The translations under genes were made by a program, and so were the position numbers. The notes under the pieces were generated by a model, which made no database searches, was not told the origin of the DNA, and worked only from the letters and a program-made list of their open reading frames with translations. From positions 155,393 through 219,392 of the IMG/VR virus record IMGVR_UViG_3300033984_000473: a stretch of DNA of 64,000 nucleotides, one strand, 5' to 3'. How positions within the stretch are numbered: position 1 is the first letter of the stretch; the number at the start of each line of letters is the position of its first letter. This DNA is from a virus. Positions 5,985 to 45,987 of this stretch are shown one piece after another.

Positions 5985-6056
5985 ATATGTTAATTTTTTT
6001 ACAAATATACTAATTTTTTTATTAGAAAACAAGTATTTATTAGAAAAATATTTAAC

Positions 6057-6197
6057 ATGGCAAAAGCAACATCAACAACAACTTCTGGCAGACTTGAAAA
6101 GACTCACAAGAAGAGACCTGGAATTCATTCGAAATCGAAATCATCAAAAATGAAAAATTCTAAGAACTACTTAAAAAAATCGGTAGGTCAAGGTTAA
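6057..6197 (+). CDS. Small basic protein (46 aa)
   Basis: A plus-strand ORF of 46 codons, very rich in Lys, Ser and Thr (MAKATSTTTSGRLEKTHKKRP). It is preceded by a TATTTATT late-type box at 6034 and followed at once by an intrinsic terminator, so it is a complete one-gene unit. Likely nucleic-acid binding or structural; unproven. Confidence 0.7.
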   Translation: MAKATSTTTSGRLEKTHKKRPGIHSKSKSSKMKNSKNYLKKSVGQG

Positions 6198-6227: not shown

Positions 6228-6789
6228 AATTTAATTCGTATGTCTTTTTTTCACCATTTGGTTTTGAATAAACCAAGTTATCAACTTTGATTGGCATGTC
6301 TTCCATACCTTTCATTTTTTTTATGTATTTGTCAGCCGTTTTAGGTTTCAAATAAGCAATTGTTACGTGTGGGTGATAATCTGGAAAGTTATTTGTATTT
6401 GGAAATTTCTTAAACTTTGTATTCATTTTATGCATGTCATCACTATCAACGTCAAACTTTAAAACATCAAACTTTTCGTTGCTAAATGCTGATATCCCTT
6501 TGAACCCTATCTTAGGTACTTTTACCTTATCAATTTCTTGTTCTATGTCTTCATCTGGTACGTCTGCATGCAAACCAAATAATATTGTCGCATGCGGCTC
6601 AGTTTCTCTACCATAGCTTGGGTCTTCTTTATCAATGTATAAATCTTCGTCATCAATTATGTCTTGTAACTTATCCCAATCTTCATTGGCTACATCCAAG
6701 AAAACCATAAGACACCCATATTCGTTTTTATGGGTTTTGTGTTTACCTTCTTTTAATAAAGCCGCCCTTAATTCTTTTTTAATATTCAT
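6226..6789 (-). CDS. 2H phosphoesterase (LigT-like)
   Basis: A 187-residue protein with two H-x-T motifs, EPHATILFGL and YHPHVTIAYL, about 85 residues apart. This is the signature of 2H phosphoesterases, which act on 2',3'-cyclic phosphates or 2'-5'/3'-5' oligonucleotides. T4 Acb1, which degrades CBASS cyclic nucleotides, is of this superfamily, so an anti-defence role is possible. An RNA-end-healing role is equally possible given the RNA ligases here. The N-terminus (NIKKELRAALLKEG) resembles the short tag shared by several other proteins in the window. Confidence 0.85.
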   Translation of the reverse strand: MNIKKELRAALLKEGKHKTHKNEYGCLMVFLDVANEDWDKLQDIIDDEDLYIDKEDPSYGRETEPHATILFGLHADVPDEDIEQEIDKVKVPKIGFKGISAFSNEKFDVLKFDVDSDDMHKMNTKFKKFPNTNNFPDYHPHVTIAYLKPKTADKYIKKMKGMEDMPIKVDNLVYSKPNGEKKTYELN

Positions 6790-6798
6790 ATAAAACTT

Positions 6799-7812
6799 TT
6801 ATTTGTTTTTAAGTAAATCTTGTCGATTTCCTTTATTAGCTTTATGTAAGTCTTTTAACTTATCATAATTTCCAGCTTTTTTATTTGCCATATAAGCTTT
6901 TGAAGCGTCAGTACCAGCTGGCTGACCACCATGCAATAACAAGGCAAAATTAGTATCACTACAACACGCTAATGAATCATCATAATCGATTGGTAACCTT
7001 AATTTCTTAGCATCTTCAATACTATAAACTACAGTTGAATATCTTAGATTATTTTGTAAGATTGTTTCTTCGTTATTTTTATCCATTGATGCTATTAAAT
7101 TCATATTTTTAGGTACAGAACCTCTATTTGATATCCAAAATTTTAATGATGTTGTATGTGTGTAAAATTTGATATTTGGGAAAGCATTTGCAACTTCAAT
7201 CCAAGCCTTGAAATAAGCGTCAGAAAAGAAATCTCCACCCTCGTGTATTCTAAAGATATTGCTACGGTCTAAACCAGCATACGTAATTGACTCAATAATC
7301 AAATCTGCCATACCTTTAACTCCACCATCTTTTTGTGCTGTCATCAATAATGATAGGTTACTAAAAGCTTTCTTGTTTGTTTCTGGATATTGTGCTTGAG
7401 CTCTAGCGGCATAACACATGTGTTCTGTTTTATCACTAGCTTGTTTTAAAGATTTGTTGTCTTTAAACTTTTGTCCAGGTTTAGATGCAAAATTCTTACA
7501 TACAGTGGCAAATGGACATGTATAACCAGCTGGTAAAGAAAAATAAGGCCAATCTAATTTAGCGTTTGCATTTGAAAATGTTAATAAACAAATATTTTTA
7601 TCTACTTTTTCGGTAGGTGCTGCTTGACCATGTGCAAATGGGTCAAAATCATCTTCTTCTCTTAAATAAACATAAAGCTCATTCAAATTATGTATGTCTT
7701 CATCTAAATCACCCGAAAATTGAAAATAGTCTTTAACGGTTTCAAATAATTTAACTGGTCCTTCATTTAAACTAGTTTTTATAATACCTTCTCTTAATAA
7801 TTTTTTAATCAT
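6799..7812 (-). CDS. GP88-like phage protein
   Basis: A 337-residue protein resembling the phage GP88 family: a Cys-containing CPFATVCKNFAS segment, a second Cys in MCYAARAQ, and the FRIHEGGDFFSDAYFKAWIEVA...FYTHTTS block. The biochemical role of the family is unknown to me. The N-terminus (MIKKLLREG) carries the shared tag. A late-type ATATTTATA box lies about 20 bases upstream. Confidence 0.7.
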   Translation of the reverse strand: MIKKLLREGIIKTSLNEGPVKLFETVKDYFQFSGDLDEDIHNLNELYVYLREEDDFDPFAHGQAAPTEKVDKNICLLTFSNANAKLDWPYFSLPAGYTCPFATVCKNFASKPGQKFKDNKSLKQASDKTEHMCYAARAQAQYPETNKKAFSNLSLLMTAQKDGGVKGMADLIIESITYAGLDRSNIFRIHEGGDFFSDAYFKAWIEVANAFPNIKFYTHTTSLKFWISNRGSVPKNMNLIASMDKNNEETILQNNLRYSTVVYSIEDAKKLRLPIDYDDSLACCSDTNFALLLHGGQPAGTDASKAYMANKKAGNYDKLKDLHKANKGNRQDLLKNK

Positions 7813-7872: not shown

Positions 7873-8524
7873 ATTCTTCGTTTAATTGTTGTCTTACTTC
7901 TTTCTTAGCAACGTTTTTCTCTTTCTTTAACTCTTGTCTATGCCAGAACTTTTGACCGCTTCTCCAACCACCCCATGGAAACCCTTTGGCCGCCTTGTAA
8001 AGCATCTTCTCATTCTCAGCATCCATTTGATAAAGAACGTTATCATGTTCTCTACGGTGTGTGATATATGATTGAGTGATTTTAACAACCAACTCATAAG
8101 ATAAGGTGCAACGATAGTGAACATCACTAAAACCACTTTTCCAATACTTTTTACGCCAGTCATCATAAACAACAAAAAACTTTTTAGCCGTTGGTGACAA
8201 CGCTTCATACTTTTCCTTGTTAATCTCGTTTAATTTAGGATACTGGATATACCATTTTTTTGTTTTGTAATCTCTGAACTTGAAGTCTTTCTTTTTTGAC
8301 CAGATTTTTTGTTTGCACGCATCCAAAGCTTCTTTAAACGCATCGGCATCGGCACGTCTAAGAATATCTTCTCTAAGAACCCATTCAGCATCAAACCCAT
8401 GTGGAATGGGTTTCTCCAACTCAATATACCCTTGATTGCGAATGGCATCTGAAATCTCTTTGTCTTTAAGCTTAAGACGTATAATCTCTTTTTCCCTTAA
8501 ATAATGTTTGTTTCGTTTTTTCAT
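7871..8524 (-). CDS. Hypothetical basic protein (217 aa)
   Basis: Very rich in Lys, Arg, Trp and Tyr (KKWYIQYPKLNEIN, GFPWGGWRSGQKFW). No known domain. It abuts the upstream gene with no spacing and ends at a terminator, so these two form one operon. Confidence 0.75.
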   Translation of the reverse strand: MKKRNKHYLREKEIIRLKLKDKEISDAIRNQGYIELEKPIPHGFDAEWVLREDILRRADADAFKEALDACKQKIWSKKKDFKFRDYKTKKWYIQYPKLNEINKEKYEALSPTAKKFFVVYDDWRKKYWKSGFSDVHYRCTLSYELVVKITQSYITHRREHDNVLYQMDAENEKMLYKAAKGFPWGGWRSGQKFWHRQELKKEKNVAKKEVRQQLNEE

Positions 8525-8848
8525 TTACTCATAAATTTTTTTAATTTCATATGTTGAGCTAAAATTCATCTCAATGAAAAACCCTAACTCGTTTGTAAAT
8601 AAATTTTCATTAATAACGAACCCATCTGTATCATAATTAATATCTAAGTCATCTAAATAAATTAGTTGTTTTATATCATCTAAATGATATAAAGTTTTAA
8701 CATAATGTATTGATAACGAACCTCTATTAATTCTAATAAATAAATTAAATTCAGAAATTGGCGAAAATTCGTCACCTTCAATAATCGTTATTGGTAATAG
8801 TAAATAAATTCGTTTTAATAAATCTTCTAAGGTCTCAAATTTTGTCAT
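8525..8848 (-). CDS. Hypothetical protein (107 aa)
   Basis: A small acidic, beta-rich-looking protein. Its stop touches the start of the next gene. A TATATTTG box with an upstream TTG-containing region at about 8868-8900 fits a housekeeping-type promoter. Confidence 0.7.
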   Translation of the reverse strand: MTKFETLEDLLKRIYLLLPITIIEGDEFSPISEFNLFIRINRGSLSIHYVKTLYHLDDIKQLIYLDDLDINYDTDGFVINENLFTNELGFFIEMNFSSTYEIKKIYE

Positions 8849-20351: not shown

Positions 20352-20601
20352 TTTAAGAACAGTGACTTACGGGAATCTCACCTTGATTCTAGAAATCGTT
20401 CCTTTAACTTCGCCCCCTGTATCATTGGAGATTTAACCCAATTAGATGCCCATGGTCAGCCACAGCTCTTTTTCTCATATCCCAAATGTGGGAAAGGGAG
20501 CCACCTTTAAAGTACGTAAGTATGTTCTTATTAATTGATTTGATTCTGCTTTACATAGACCATCGAAGGACGATATACATACATTGGACCAAACCTATTT
20601 G
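20352..20601. other. Non-coding spacer
   Basis: About 250 bases between the hairpin and the tRNA at 20602. Higher GC than the neighbours with short inverted repeats, no convincing ORF. Confidence 0.35.
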
Positions 20602-20718
20602 TACAAAGAGTAGGATTCGAACCTACGTAACTCCCTACGTCATGCTTCCAAACTGAAAAGGAATCGAACCTTACACACGAATTCAAGGGGGAGTGCTTTA
20701 CCACTAAGCTATCTCCGT
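20602..20718 (-). tRNA. tRNA with a large anticodon-loop insertion
   Basis: Acceptor ACGGAGA pairs with TCTTTGT. The D arm, anticodon stem CTCCC/GGGAG, 4-base variable region and T arm GTAGG/CCTAC are all present. Between the two strands of the anticodon stem are 53 bases instead of 7, and the insert contains a second T-arm-like hairpin (AAGG-TTCGATT-CCTT). Anticodon cannot be assigned. Confidence 0.6.
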
Positions 20719-20835
20719 ATTTGAGGCTGAGGCCTCTGCGTTGTGTAGACTATTCATCATCTATTACAATTCTAGCTTTCCTTTCTCAAGGGAACAACAC
20801 AATAAGTTAGACAACAAGATTAACTTTTTTCTTTT

Positions 20836-20915
20836 TCGTGCTCTAACCATTAAGCTAACCGCCCAGTGTCTTAGGACAGTATGGGACTCGAACCCATATC
20901 ACGAGCTTAACAGGC
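20836..20915 (-). tRNA. Circularly permuted tRNA-Asn(GUU)
   Basis: On the minus strand the 3' half comes first (20915-20873: anticodon loop CTGTTAA, GCTCG, T arm ATGGG/CCCAT, acceptor ACTGTCC). After 8 bases (AAGACACT) follows the 5' half (20864-20836: GGGCGGT, D arm, A, CGA). Joining position 29 to 30 gives a perfect anticodon stem CGAGC/GCTCG, and the acceptor pairs 7 of 7 with two G-U. The flanks match the intron of the tRNA-Asp at 25009. Confidence 0.72.
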
Positions 20916-20998
20916 TATAGATTTTTTGTTGCTGAAATAATCTTTCAATGTCTAGTTACAAACTAAGCAATTTCTCACTTAGCTTATATTTTTGGGTA

Positions 20999-25008: not shown

Positions 25009-25127
25009 CAGCGGCACCAGGAATCGAACCTAGAACAATGGCGTGACAGGCTATATTGAATGCTGAACGTAATCTTCTTAATCAGATTAACTTTTTTAAC
25101 ATTGTTATACCATTTAACTATACCGCT
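25009..25127 (-). tRNA. tRNA-Asp(GUC) with a 48-base intron
   Basis: 5' exon 25127-25100 (AGCGGTA, D arm GTTA/TAAC, A, ATG = positions 27-29). Intron 25099-25052. 3' exon 25051-25009 (GC, loop CTGTCAC, GCCAT, T arm, TGCCGCT, discriminator G as expected for Asp). Joined, the anticodon stem ATGGC/GCCAT is perfect. The intron folds TAATCT/AGATTA. Splice point lies between positions 29 and 30. Confidence 0.8.
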
Positions 25128-38565: not shown

Positions 38566-39621
38566 TTAAGCTAACTTAAAGAACATTTCTCTTACCTTTG
38601 ATGAAACGTATTTGTTTACATCTTTAGGTTCAATATTATTGGCTACCATAGTATCCATTTCTTCTTTGGTAATGTCAGTTACAACCCATCTAATAACATC
38701 ACCCATCTTTTTAACATCGATTGGTTCGTCATTTGGGAATACATTTTCAAGTGATTGATTGAAACGACTTTCAGTAACTGCATACTCAACAAATTTTTGG
38801 ATAGAACCCAATTTCTCAACATCAACACTCGCTAGAGTTTTAACCTTAGAGCTAGAGTGCTTTTCACCCTTAACCTTAAATCTATGAACGATACCGTTTA
38901 CATTGGTTGACCAAACAATACCCTCACCGATTCCAGAGAACCCAAAAGCTTTCGCTACAGGACATTCTTCTTCAACTGCGATAGTTAACTCGGATAATTG
39001 GTTTTGAATCAATTGAGGCATGTTAAAATCGATATCGATAGAGAACGTTGGGAAATCATCAATATTGTAGATGTTATCATCTGGAGACTTTAAATAATGG
39101 TAAGGAATCCAGAACGCTGGTTTTAATCTAGCTTCTTCTTCACTATAGGTGATAGGTGAAACCTTAACACCAAATATAAAGAATGATTTAGGTAAATTAC
39201 AAATACCAACACCTTTTTGAATGTTACCACCACACCATTCACCATAAATCGTAACGATGTTATTTCTAGCATCAAATAAATTAAACGAATTTATCTGGTT
39301 AGCAAATTTTTTAAACGCTTCTTTATGTGATTCAACAAAGAAAGCAAACCCAGCATTGTCTTTTTCTATTGTAATGATGTTCTCACGTGATTGTGCCCAG
39401 TATTCACTTTGTGATTGGTCATAACCATAGTTAAAAGATACAGCAGCATTGGTTCCGTGTAATTTCACAGTACCTTTAAACGTAAGCACTGGCTTAGGAA
39501 GATTTGGGTCATAAATAGCATCACCATTCTCATCTAACCCGATGTAGTTGTAATGTCTATTTATGTTCGTCACGACAGTTCTAAACTGTTCAATTGACGG
39601 GAATTTAATCATTTTTTTCAT
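38566..39621 (-). CDS. Rnl2-like RNA ligase
   Basis: 351 residues. Nucleotidyl-lysine motif TVKLHGTNAAVSF (motif I K-x-H-G-T-N), then IYGEWCGGNIQKGVG (motif III region), GEGIVWSTN (IV) and RFKVKGEKHS (V), as in the Rnl2/Rnl5 RNA ligase group. Seals 3'-OH/5'-P RNA ends, typically nicks in duplex RNA. First in an operon-like run with small membrane genes upstream. Confidence 0.9.
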   Translation of the reverse strand: MKKMIKFPSIEQFRTVVTNINRHYNYIGLDENGDAIYDPNLPKPVLTFKGTVKLHGTNAAVSFNYGYDQSQSEYWAQSRENIITIEKDNAGFAFFVESHKEAFKKFANQINSFNLFDARNNIVTIYGEWCGGNIQKGVGICNLPKSFFIFGVKVSPITYSEEEARLKPAFWIPYHYLKSPDDNIYNIDDFPTFSIDIDFNMPQLIQNQLSELTIAVEEECPVAKAFGFSGIGEGIVWSTNVNGIVHRFKVKGEKHSSSKVKTLASVDVEKLGSIQKFVEYAVTESRFNQSLENVFPNDEPIDVKKMGDVIRWVVTDITKEEMDTMVANNIEPKDVNKYVSSKVREMFFKLA

Positions 39622-44862: not shown

Positions 44863-45987
44863 TTAAAGCATTTTATATAATAATTTATCATCGTATTTAA
44901 ACATAAATGTTTCAACCGATTCTACTTTTCCTTCAGCCAATCCAAAATACAATCCTGTGAATTGTTTTAAGTCTTGTTTACCACATACTTCAAACACAGC
45001 TTCGGCATATTTCTTTTTTTCAGATGCCATTATGTTTTTTGGTTTACGTAGTTTCAACTCATCCCACAATACATTCAATTTTACAACCAAAGCATCGTAA
45101 GATTCTTTTAACTTATAAAGTTCCTCTTTTCTTTCTGGAAAGGTTGAGGCGAATTCTTCTATCTCATTGGTTTTAACGATTGTAAGTATGTTGTGTTCAG
45201 CAGTTTTACCTTTTAAGTGGTGAACTGCCAAGTAAGCTGGGTTTTTTATCTTAACACGGTTAAAATTAGCATCCACAACAACGTAACCTTCTTCCGACCA
45301 TGGCATACCTTCAAATGTACGTAACAAAGCACCCACATCTTTGGCATTCAAATCAAACTTTTTAACCAATGGCAGTCCCAATGATATAGCAGCCATTTCT
45401 AAGTCTTTTCCAGATAATTCTTCTAGAGTTTCTCTGTTTCTGATTGTAAGGATAGTAGCTGATGATTCACCGTGTGGTTTAACCACTATATTGTATGGAG
45501 TAGTTAACTCGAATACGTATATATGGTTTTTATCTAGTAAACAATCGTTGAAACCGTACTTGTTATTCACAGTATCCCAGAATAGGTCATTAAATGTAGT
45601 ACCCATCTTGTTATTTACCTCTCCTTCACCCTCTGCTGTACCAGTAGTACCAGCAAACCATGTTTTTTTGTTCCAATCCCAGTATGCTTGTATAAGAGTA
45701 CCATCTAATTTCTCTAGAACACTAGCAGTATTCCAGTCAATCTTAGCAGCGTTACCCTCTTGTGAGTTAAAAAACTTTCTAAAAGCCAATGACATTACCT
45801 TCCATGTATCCATTTCAAGTATAAGACCACGAGAATCTTGCATTTCTGGCAACGCCATAAGTGTTGGCGACACTAATTGGTCATATTTTAAAAGTATTTT
45901 ACCGTCATACTCTCTAAATTTCAATTTAAAGTCTGATATTGTTTTTGATATCCCGTTTTTTCTGATATATTCTTGTATTGCTAACAT
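44863..45987 (-). CDS. Rnl1-like RNA ligase
   Basis: 374 residues. RGLILEMDTWKVMSLAFRKFFN, then motif I ASVLEKLDGTLIQAYWD (EK-x-DGT), WFAGTTGT, YVFELTTPYN and EEGYVVVDAN...VKIKNPAYLAVH (IV, V): the T4 Rnl1 family, which repairs cleaved tRNA anticodon loops. With the kinase-2H protein at 50926 it could form a complete repair pair. TACTTTTG promoter at about 46004. Confidence 0.95.
   Translation of the reverse strand: MLAIQEYIRKNGISKTISDFKLKFREYDGKILLKYDQLVSPTLMALPEMQDSRGLILEMDTWKVMSLAFRKFFNSQEGNAAKIDWNTASVLEKLDGTLIQAYWDWNKKTWFAGTTGTAEGEGEVNNKMGTTFNDLFWDTVNNKYGFNDCLLDKNHIYVFELTTPYNIVVKPHGESSATILTIRNRETLEELSGKDLEMAAISLGLPLVKKFDLNAKDVGALLRTFEGMPWSEEGYVVVDANFNRVKIKNPAYLAVHHLKGKTAEHNILTIVKTNEIEEFASTFPERKEELYKLKESYDALVVKLNVLWDELKLRKPKNIMASEKKKYAEAVFEVCGKQDLKQFTGLYFGLAEGKVESVETFMFKYDDKLLYKML

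Follow-up and report, generated by a model that had tools for sequence, protein, structure and literature searches.

Does a locus in which the 3′ half of a tRNA-Asn lies upstream of its 5′ half represent a tRNA gene, and, if so, how could a tRNA be made from it? Such a locus occurs in the 64,000-nt stretch of viral DNA analysed here (the window), which belongs to a record of 232,931 bases with more than 50 tRNA matches. The locus lies on the minus strand, the orientation of all the tRNAs around it, and its two halves are separated there by 8 bases, as a preliminary description had claimed (Table 1). On that strand, the 3′ part reads TAGACA-TTGA-AAGATTA-T-TTCAGCA-ACAAAAAATCTAT / AGCCTGTTAAGCTCG...ATGGGTTCGAGTCCCAT-ACTGTCC-T and is followed by the spacer AAGACACT and then by GGGCGGT-TA-GCTTAATGGTTAGAGC-A-CG / AAAAAGAAAAAAGT-TAATCTT-GT-TGTCTA. 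The acceptor strands GGGCGGT/ACTGTCC form 7 of 7 pairs, two of them G-U, and joining the halves gives an anticodon stem CGAGC/GCTCG with 5 of 5 pairs and the loop CTGTTAA, in agreement with the pairing described earlier. ARAGORN and the Rfam tRNA model, both at default settings, missed the permuted gene, while the joined gene was called tRNA-Asn(gtt) by ARAGORN. The window also contains three ordinary tRNA-Asn genes and two for tRNA-Asp; with three ordinary tRNA-Asn genes in the phage, the permuted one is not obviously required for decoding.

Table 1. Features of the permuted tRNA-Asn locus and related genes (window positions, except for KVP40)
Feature	Position	Strand	Basis or remark
Outer stem P3, 5′ strand TAGACA	20949-20954	(-)	pairs with 20808-20813; covaries among permuted loci
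P3, 3′ strand UGUCUA	20808-20813	(-)	fold; flank-pairing permutation test
Intron hairpin stem P2, 5′ strand AAGATTA (3′ intron part)	20938-20944	(-)	pairs with 20816-20822
P2, 3′ strand UAAUCUU	20816-20822	(-)	pairing with 20938-20944; covariation in cis copies
Conserved UUCAGCA motif	20930-20936	(-)	shared with cis intron cores
3′ intron linker ACAAAAAATCUAU, reaching the 3′ splice site	20917-20929	(-)	junction from comparing relatives
tRNA-Asn 3′ half AGCCTGTTAAGCTCGTGATATGGGTTCGAGTCCCATACTGTCCT	20873-20916	(-)	positions 29-31, loop CUGUUAA, T arm, acceptor 3′ strand, discriminator U
Spacer AAGACACT = AAGACACU, 8 bases	20865-20872	(-)	closes acceptor stem
tRNA-Asn 5′ half GGGCGGTTAGCTTAATGGTTAGAGCACG	20837-20864	(-)	acceptor 5′ strand, D arm, positions 26-28
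A-rich linker, 5′ intron part	20823-20836	(-)	
tRNA-Asp(GUC) with cis intron	25009-25127	(-)	exons 25127-25100 and 25051-25009
tRNA-Asp intron, 48 nt, at 29/30	25099-25052	(-)	ends same as permuted tRNA-Asn
T4 RNA-ligase-1-like gene, candidate sealing enzyme	44863-45987	(-)	PF09511 E 7e-14; PDB T4 Rnl1 E ~1e-9
Second RNA-ligase-like gene	38566-39621	(-)	PF09414 E 1.6e-10; no PDB sequence match
KVP40 (L621) intron-bearing genes	6001-6126, 6632-6744, 6755-6878, 8429-8544		

Several further elements were seen around the locus and in related contigs. Upstream of the permuted gene, a hairpin at 20963-20982 (-), also present in L011 and L022, has a conserved loop UGAGAAAUUG and a stem that varies but remains complementary; this hairpin is absent in L013. 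A tRNA-like gene with two T arms is conserved downstream of the permuted gene (20602-20718 (-) in the window; also in L011 and L022 1673-1790), and consists of an outer tRNA with about 50 nt in its anticodon loop, including a second T-arm-like hairpin, an insert of a different type from the intron described below. Another tRNA-like match, at G000:C1:122630-122723 (-), has a T arm nested inside. The sequence GGTGGCTCCCTTTCCCACATTTGGGATAT...AAAAGAGC recurs by tRNA clusters (window ~20465-20510 (-), L361/L418, and L354) and is a putative structured RNA. In L010, L331, and L724 (~431), copies of tRNA-Asn have an AUU anticodon, which is unusual for bacteria.

To assess the conservation of the permuted layout, we used a pattern of the 3′ intron end, which matched five viral contigs, all five with a permuted gene; looser patterns gave many more matches. 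A script identified 17 loci of this kind in viral contigs, with 10 different acceptor stems among them; it required an intron core, a T arm followed downstream by a complementary acceptor strand, the start of a D arm, and a 5′ intron end. Acceptor strands paired with those of their own half at 65 of 70 positions (an absolute figure inflated by the preselection of candidates for at least 6 acceptor pairs) compared to a mean of 41 with foreign halves, and 65 was reached in none of 20,000 reshufflings. The outer flanks are complementary within each permuted locus although their sequences differ, and own-flank pairing was reached in 64 of 20,000 permutations. Covariation of P3 is seen in the pairs TAGACA/TGTCTA, GATA/TATC, GGGAA/TTCCC, TAGGTAA/TTACCTA, and AAAGAGATTC/GAATCTCTTT, and P2 has compensatory changes in L022, G007, and S13/Ci1. 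Spacers in relatives are 4-28 nt long, counting the discriminator, and the anticodons of permuted genes include those for Asn, Lys, Arg, Ile, and Pro.

The same layout is present in cultured phages. Cronobacter phage S13 carries a permuted tRNA gene directly after two tandem intron copies, and Citrobacter phage Ci1 keeps this gene with 80% identity. Reading the alignment by eye revealed that from S13 to Ci1 the acceptor changes from CGGGGAG/CTCCCCG to GAGGGTA/TGCCCTC, the anticodon stem from ACTGA/TCAGT to GCCGA/TCGGC, and P2 from GCATCC/GGATGC to TCATCC/GGATGA. Also by eye, we found three permuted genes in a row in Klebsiella phage KP13-16 and one each in Sinorhizobium phage phiN3 and Rhizobium phage RHph_Y65. 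The earlier suggestion that related phages be searched for this arrangement was productive, with the 17 loci and the cultured Cronobacter, Citrobacter, and Klebsiella phages. A blast search of INPHARED with the window locus returned only matches to tRNA halves at low identity, and in a scan of genome contigs the filtered matches, among the matches listed, resembled chance or ordinary tRNAs. Matches with ATTAGTTCAGCA were rejected as members of the family since they are ordinary D arms.

The intron of the permuted gene has counterparts in cis. As claimed in the preliminary description, its ends are shared with the intron of the window's tRNA-Asp gene, whose core scores 47.3 bits with covariance model R2, a model whose training set includes that core. 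Many phages have the same core, AAUCU-GNNA-AGAUUA-N(1-2)-UUCAGCA, in cis in their tRNA genes, where it is found at several places within the anticodon arm; two tandem cores in phage S13, outside the training set, scored 45.7 and 41.0 bits with R2. In an alignment of 21 cis cores, the P2 helix was paired in 96.8% of cells, all 6 of its pairs changed on both sides, and none of 500 shuffles reached the covariation score, a signal that was destroyed when the register was slid. UUCAGCA is invariant in these 21 cores, partly by selection because most of them came from a search requiring TTCAGCA, and variants such as UCCAGCA and UACAGCA are found in KVP40, S13, KP13-16, and phiN3. These Y-like introns are about 40-55 nt long, are located in the anticodon stem or loop, and have a core that combines an A-rich linker, the short P2 hairpin, and UUCAGCA. 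A short loop connects the two P2 strands in cis copies; permuted copies have both ends of the chain in this loop and a short spacer capping the acceptor stem, so that the intron is indeed opened at its hairpin loop, as had been proposed. Vibrio schizotequatroviruses have several cis introns. In Vibrio phage KVP40, the intron-bearing tRNAs are the annotated tRNA pseudogenes 3, 4, and 5 and one gene without a tRNA annotation; they are kept in K566, D482, and F86 and are therefore probably not pseudogenes.

The products obtained by joining the halves resemble normal tRNAs. Among 32 joined anticodon arms, a stem with 5 of 5 pairs was obtained in 24, U33 was present in every best solution for 26, and a purine at position 37 in 29, neither U33 nor R37 being part of the scoring. 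ARAGORN accepted all of the 21 joined products compared to 152 of 421 chimeras, and the accepted products correspond to Asn, Lys, Ile, Arg, Pro, Asp, Glu, Gly, Thr, and His. In S13, phiN3, and the second KP13-16 gene, the spacer encodes CCA directly behind the discriminator, suggestive of a mature 3′ end. The sequences at the splice sites show only weak conservation, and for several introns in the loop more than one junction is compatible. The junction 29/30 originally assigned to the window gene is possible there, as is 28/29, given that an A can be assigned to either side; however, L011 and L236 permit the full stem only at 28/29. The tRNA-Asp intron fits at 29/30 only. Comparison of these sequences suggests that the junction of the permuted gene is most likely at 28/29. 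With an intron at 28/29 or 29/30, the anticodon arm can also fold without splicing.

The closest known system is YrlA (Y RNA-like A, RF02553), a group of tRNA-mimicking Y RNAs from bacteria and phages whose protein partner is Ro60/Rsr. YrlA consists of a basal stem and a module resembling the D, T, and acceptor arms, and tethers Rsr to PNPase (review, PMC8394870). Both systems have the order basal stem, T arm, loop-closed acceptor stem, D arm, basal stem, and both are reported in phages; they may also share a link to Ro-family proteins. In the RF02553 alignment the arms of the window sequence follow the same order, with an insertion at the anticodon loop, and the alignment and the fold both show the two ends pairing into a basal stem that carries a permuted tRNA-like module. 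The window matched RF02553 with 24.7 bits (E 0.0022 in a 221-base search) and the best relative, KP13-16, with 39.7 bits; none of the matches of the window or its relatives reached the gathering score of 69. Compared to RF02553, which has no anticodon loop, the phage family keeps anticodons for many amino acids and also has cis members inside tRNA genes. YrlA leaves unexplained both why an anticodon arm recurs and why the same core is present in cis in tRNA genes. YrlA has already been mentioned in phages (PMC7765460), and since phage YrlA Y RNAs share the permuted order, this order has a precedent there, which the preliminary description overlooked when it stated that permuted tRNA genes were not known in phages. 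Our searches, which covered open-access literature, returned nothing that describes introns of this kind or permuted tRNA genes in phages.

We then considered which proteins accompany these genes. A Ro-like protein is encoded in 13 of the 14 intron-bearing or permuted records checked. The DUF2828/DUF7788 protein, which annotators of related phages have named "Ro-like", was found in 8 of 9 IMG/VR intron-bearing records searched and in S13, Ci1, KP13-16, and phiN3, while RHph_Y65 has a TROVE gene in its place. In S13 and Ci1, the Ro-like gene is closely followed by the permuted gene, and in RHph_Y65 the permuted gene lies just upstream of the TROVE gene, at ~100 nt, a position that points to YrlA; in the window genome the Ro-like DUF2828 gene is present but not adjacent. 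Jumbo-phage TROVE proteins have been grouped with RNA repair and a tRNA-like partner (PMC7824862). The DUF2828 protein had no sequence match in the PDB. It is also encoded by Felix-like phages, A511, CPX, Aeh1, CBB, and others in which the tRNA clusters yielded no match to the intron core below E 0.01; DUF2828 was rejected as a sufficient marker of the intron, and may be necessary but not sufficient. Beside the tRNA cluster of Listeria phage A511 (L743, 197-748 (-)) there is a ROOL RNA match of 87.5 bits (cut-off 99.1).

An Rnl1-like ligase was found in 7 of 10 records, 6 of them over the cut-off, and RtcB in none of the 10. The T4 Pnkp/Rnl1 pair is known for tRNA repair after anticodon nuclease attack, not for intron removal. 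The phage system resembles it in having an Rnl1-like ligase in most records and a substrate in the anticodon arm, but differs in that a T4-type PNKP phosphatase is clear only in KVP40. A search of shared proteins for a splicing nuclease returned only general phage genes and DUF2828.

Together, these results suggest, with a probability of roughly 0.52, that the locus is a circularly permuted tRNA-Asn gene belonging to a family of phage tRNA genes with a Y-RNA-like intron, and that it is spliced. This reading is based on the layout, its conservation and covariation, the canonical arm obtained after joining, and the presence of Ro-like and ligase genes in the same genomes; the steps of processing and the nuclease responsible for cutting are all inferred. 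The varied intron positions in the arm and the CCA encoded in permuted spacers also favour splicing, while the ordinary isoacceptors, the weakly defined splice sites, and the ability of the arm to fold unspliced count against it. The transcript would fold into a cloverleaf whose anticodon arm bears the projecting Y-like stem; the acceptor spacer would be opened by RNase P and 3′ processing, and the Y-like stem would be bound by the Ro-like protein. A nuclease of the host or the phage would then cut at the intron borders, and the phage Rnl1-like RNA ligase would join 28 to 29 to give a normal tRNA.

The main alternative, possible although well short of even odds, is that the transcript is never spliced and acts as a YrlA-type Y RNA that mimics tRNA and binds the Ro-like protein of the phage; it could serve as a decoy for anticodon nucleases or as a tether to RNA-degrading or repair enzymes. 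An intact anticodon arm would make a better decoy, and YrlA has been proposed as a competitive inhibitor of anticodon nuclease (PMC7790460). The permuted order of the RF02553 consensus, the frequent Ro-like gene, close to the permuted gene in RHph_Y65, S13, and Ci1, and the normal isoacceptors that make the permuted tRNA-Asn redundant also agree with such a role. However, RF02553 scores stay below the cut-off throughout, and Y RNAs have no need of an anticodon, yet canonical anticodons are found repeatedly here, together with U33 and R37; the split in KP13-16 falls within the Pro loop itself, the core exists in cis in tRNAs with ordinary ends, and CCA is encoded in the spacer. We consider splicing only slightly likelier than a role purely as a Y RNA or decoy.

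A very small self-splicing ribozyme that needs no protein nuclease is unlikely. A conserved core with little splice-site sequence would suit it, as would our failure to find a dedicated nuclease in these phages, but the terminal bases are unlike those of group I or II introns and no Rfam intron family matched. Group I introns of bacterial and phage tRNA genes share the anticodon-region location; the Y-like introns differ in their size and in having no RF00028 match, either at the gathering score or in an E-value scan of the locus. To our knowledge, the Y-like element is far below the size of any self-splicing intron. Decay of two tandem tRNA genes that lost their outer halves, or an assembly artefact, is highly improbable: tandem duplication with such losses could plausibly be the origin of permuted genes, but the many independent loci, including those of cultured phages, and their compensatory changes argue against mere remnants. 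Covariation likewise led us to reject two independent degenerate tRNAs, which had been named as a potentially better fit. Least probable of all is archaeal-type bulge-helix-bulge splicing by an EndA-like endonuclease, the established route for permuted tRNA genes in algae and archaea (PMC4390854). The permuted genes of Cyanidioschyzon merolae, other algae, and archaea also have the 3′ half upstream, a short spacer, and a junction at a former intron, but the phage locus belongs to a bacterial virus, probably has a 28/29 junction, and showed no 4-bp helix flanked by two 3-nt bulges at the intron borders; EndA (PF01974) was found in 0 of 10 phage records, while archaeal controls gave matches.

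As a broader proposal, tentative and somewhat short of even odds, phages may possess a class of very small tRNA introns of their own, based on a Y-RNA-like element that binds Ro, with a Ro-like protein and a phage RNA ligase assisting in their excision; permuted genes would yield circular pre-tRNAs in the same way, and YrlA RNAs would be relatives of permuted genes that lack the anticodon loop. Since cultured phages carry permuted and intron-bearing tRNA genes, the proposal is testable. If the cell cuts and rejoins these RNAs, they represent a new route to tRNA; otherwise, they are Y-RNA-like tRNA mimics with a complete anticodon. If true, this would be, as far as we could find, the first case in bacterial viruses of tRNA splicing that does not involve group I introns, would provide a substrate for phage RNA ligases and phage Ro-like proteins, and would account for the resemblance of YrlA Y RNAs to permuted tRNAs. 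The "pseudogene" tRNAs of KVP40, and unrecognised ones elsewhere, would then seem to be working genes.
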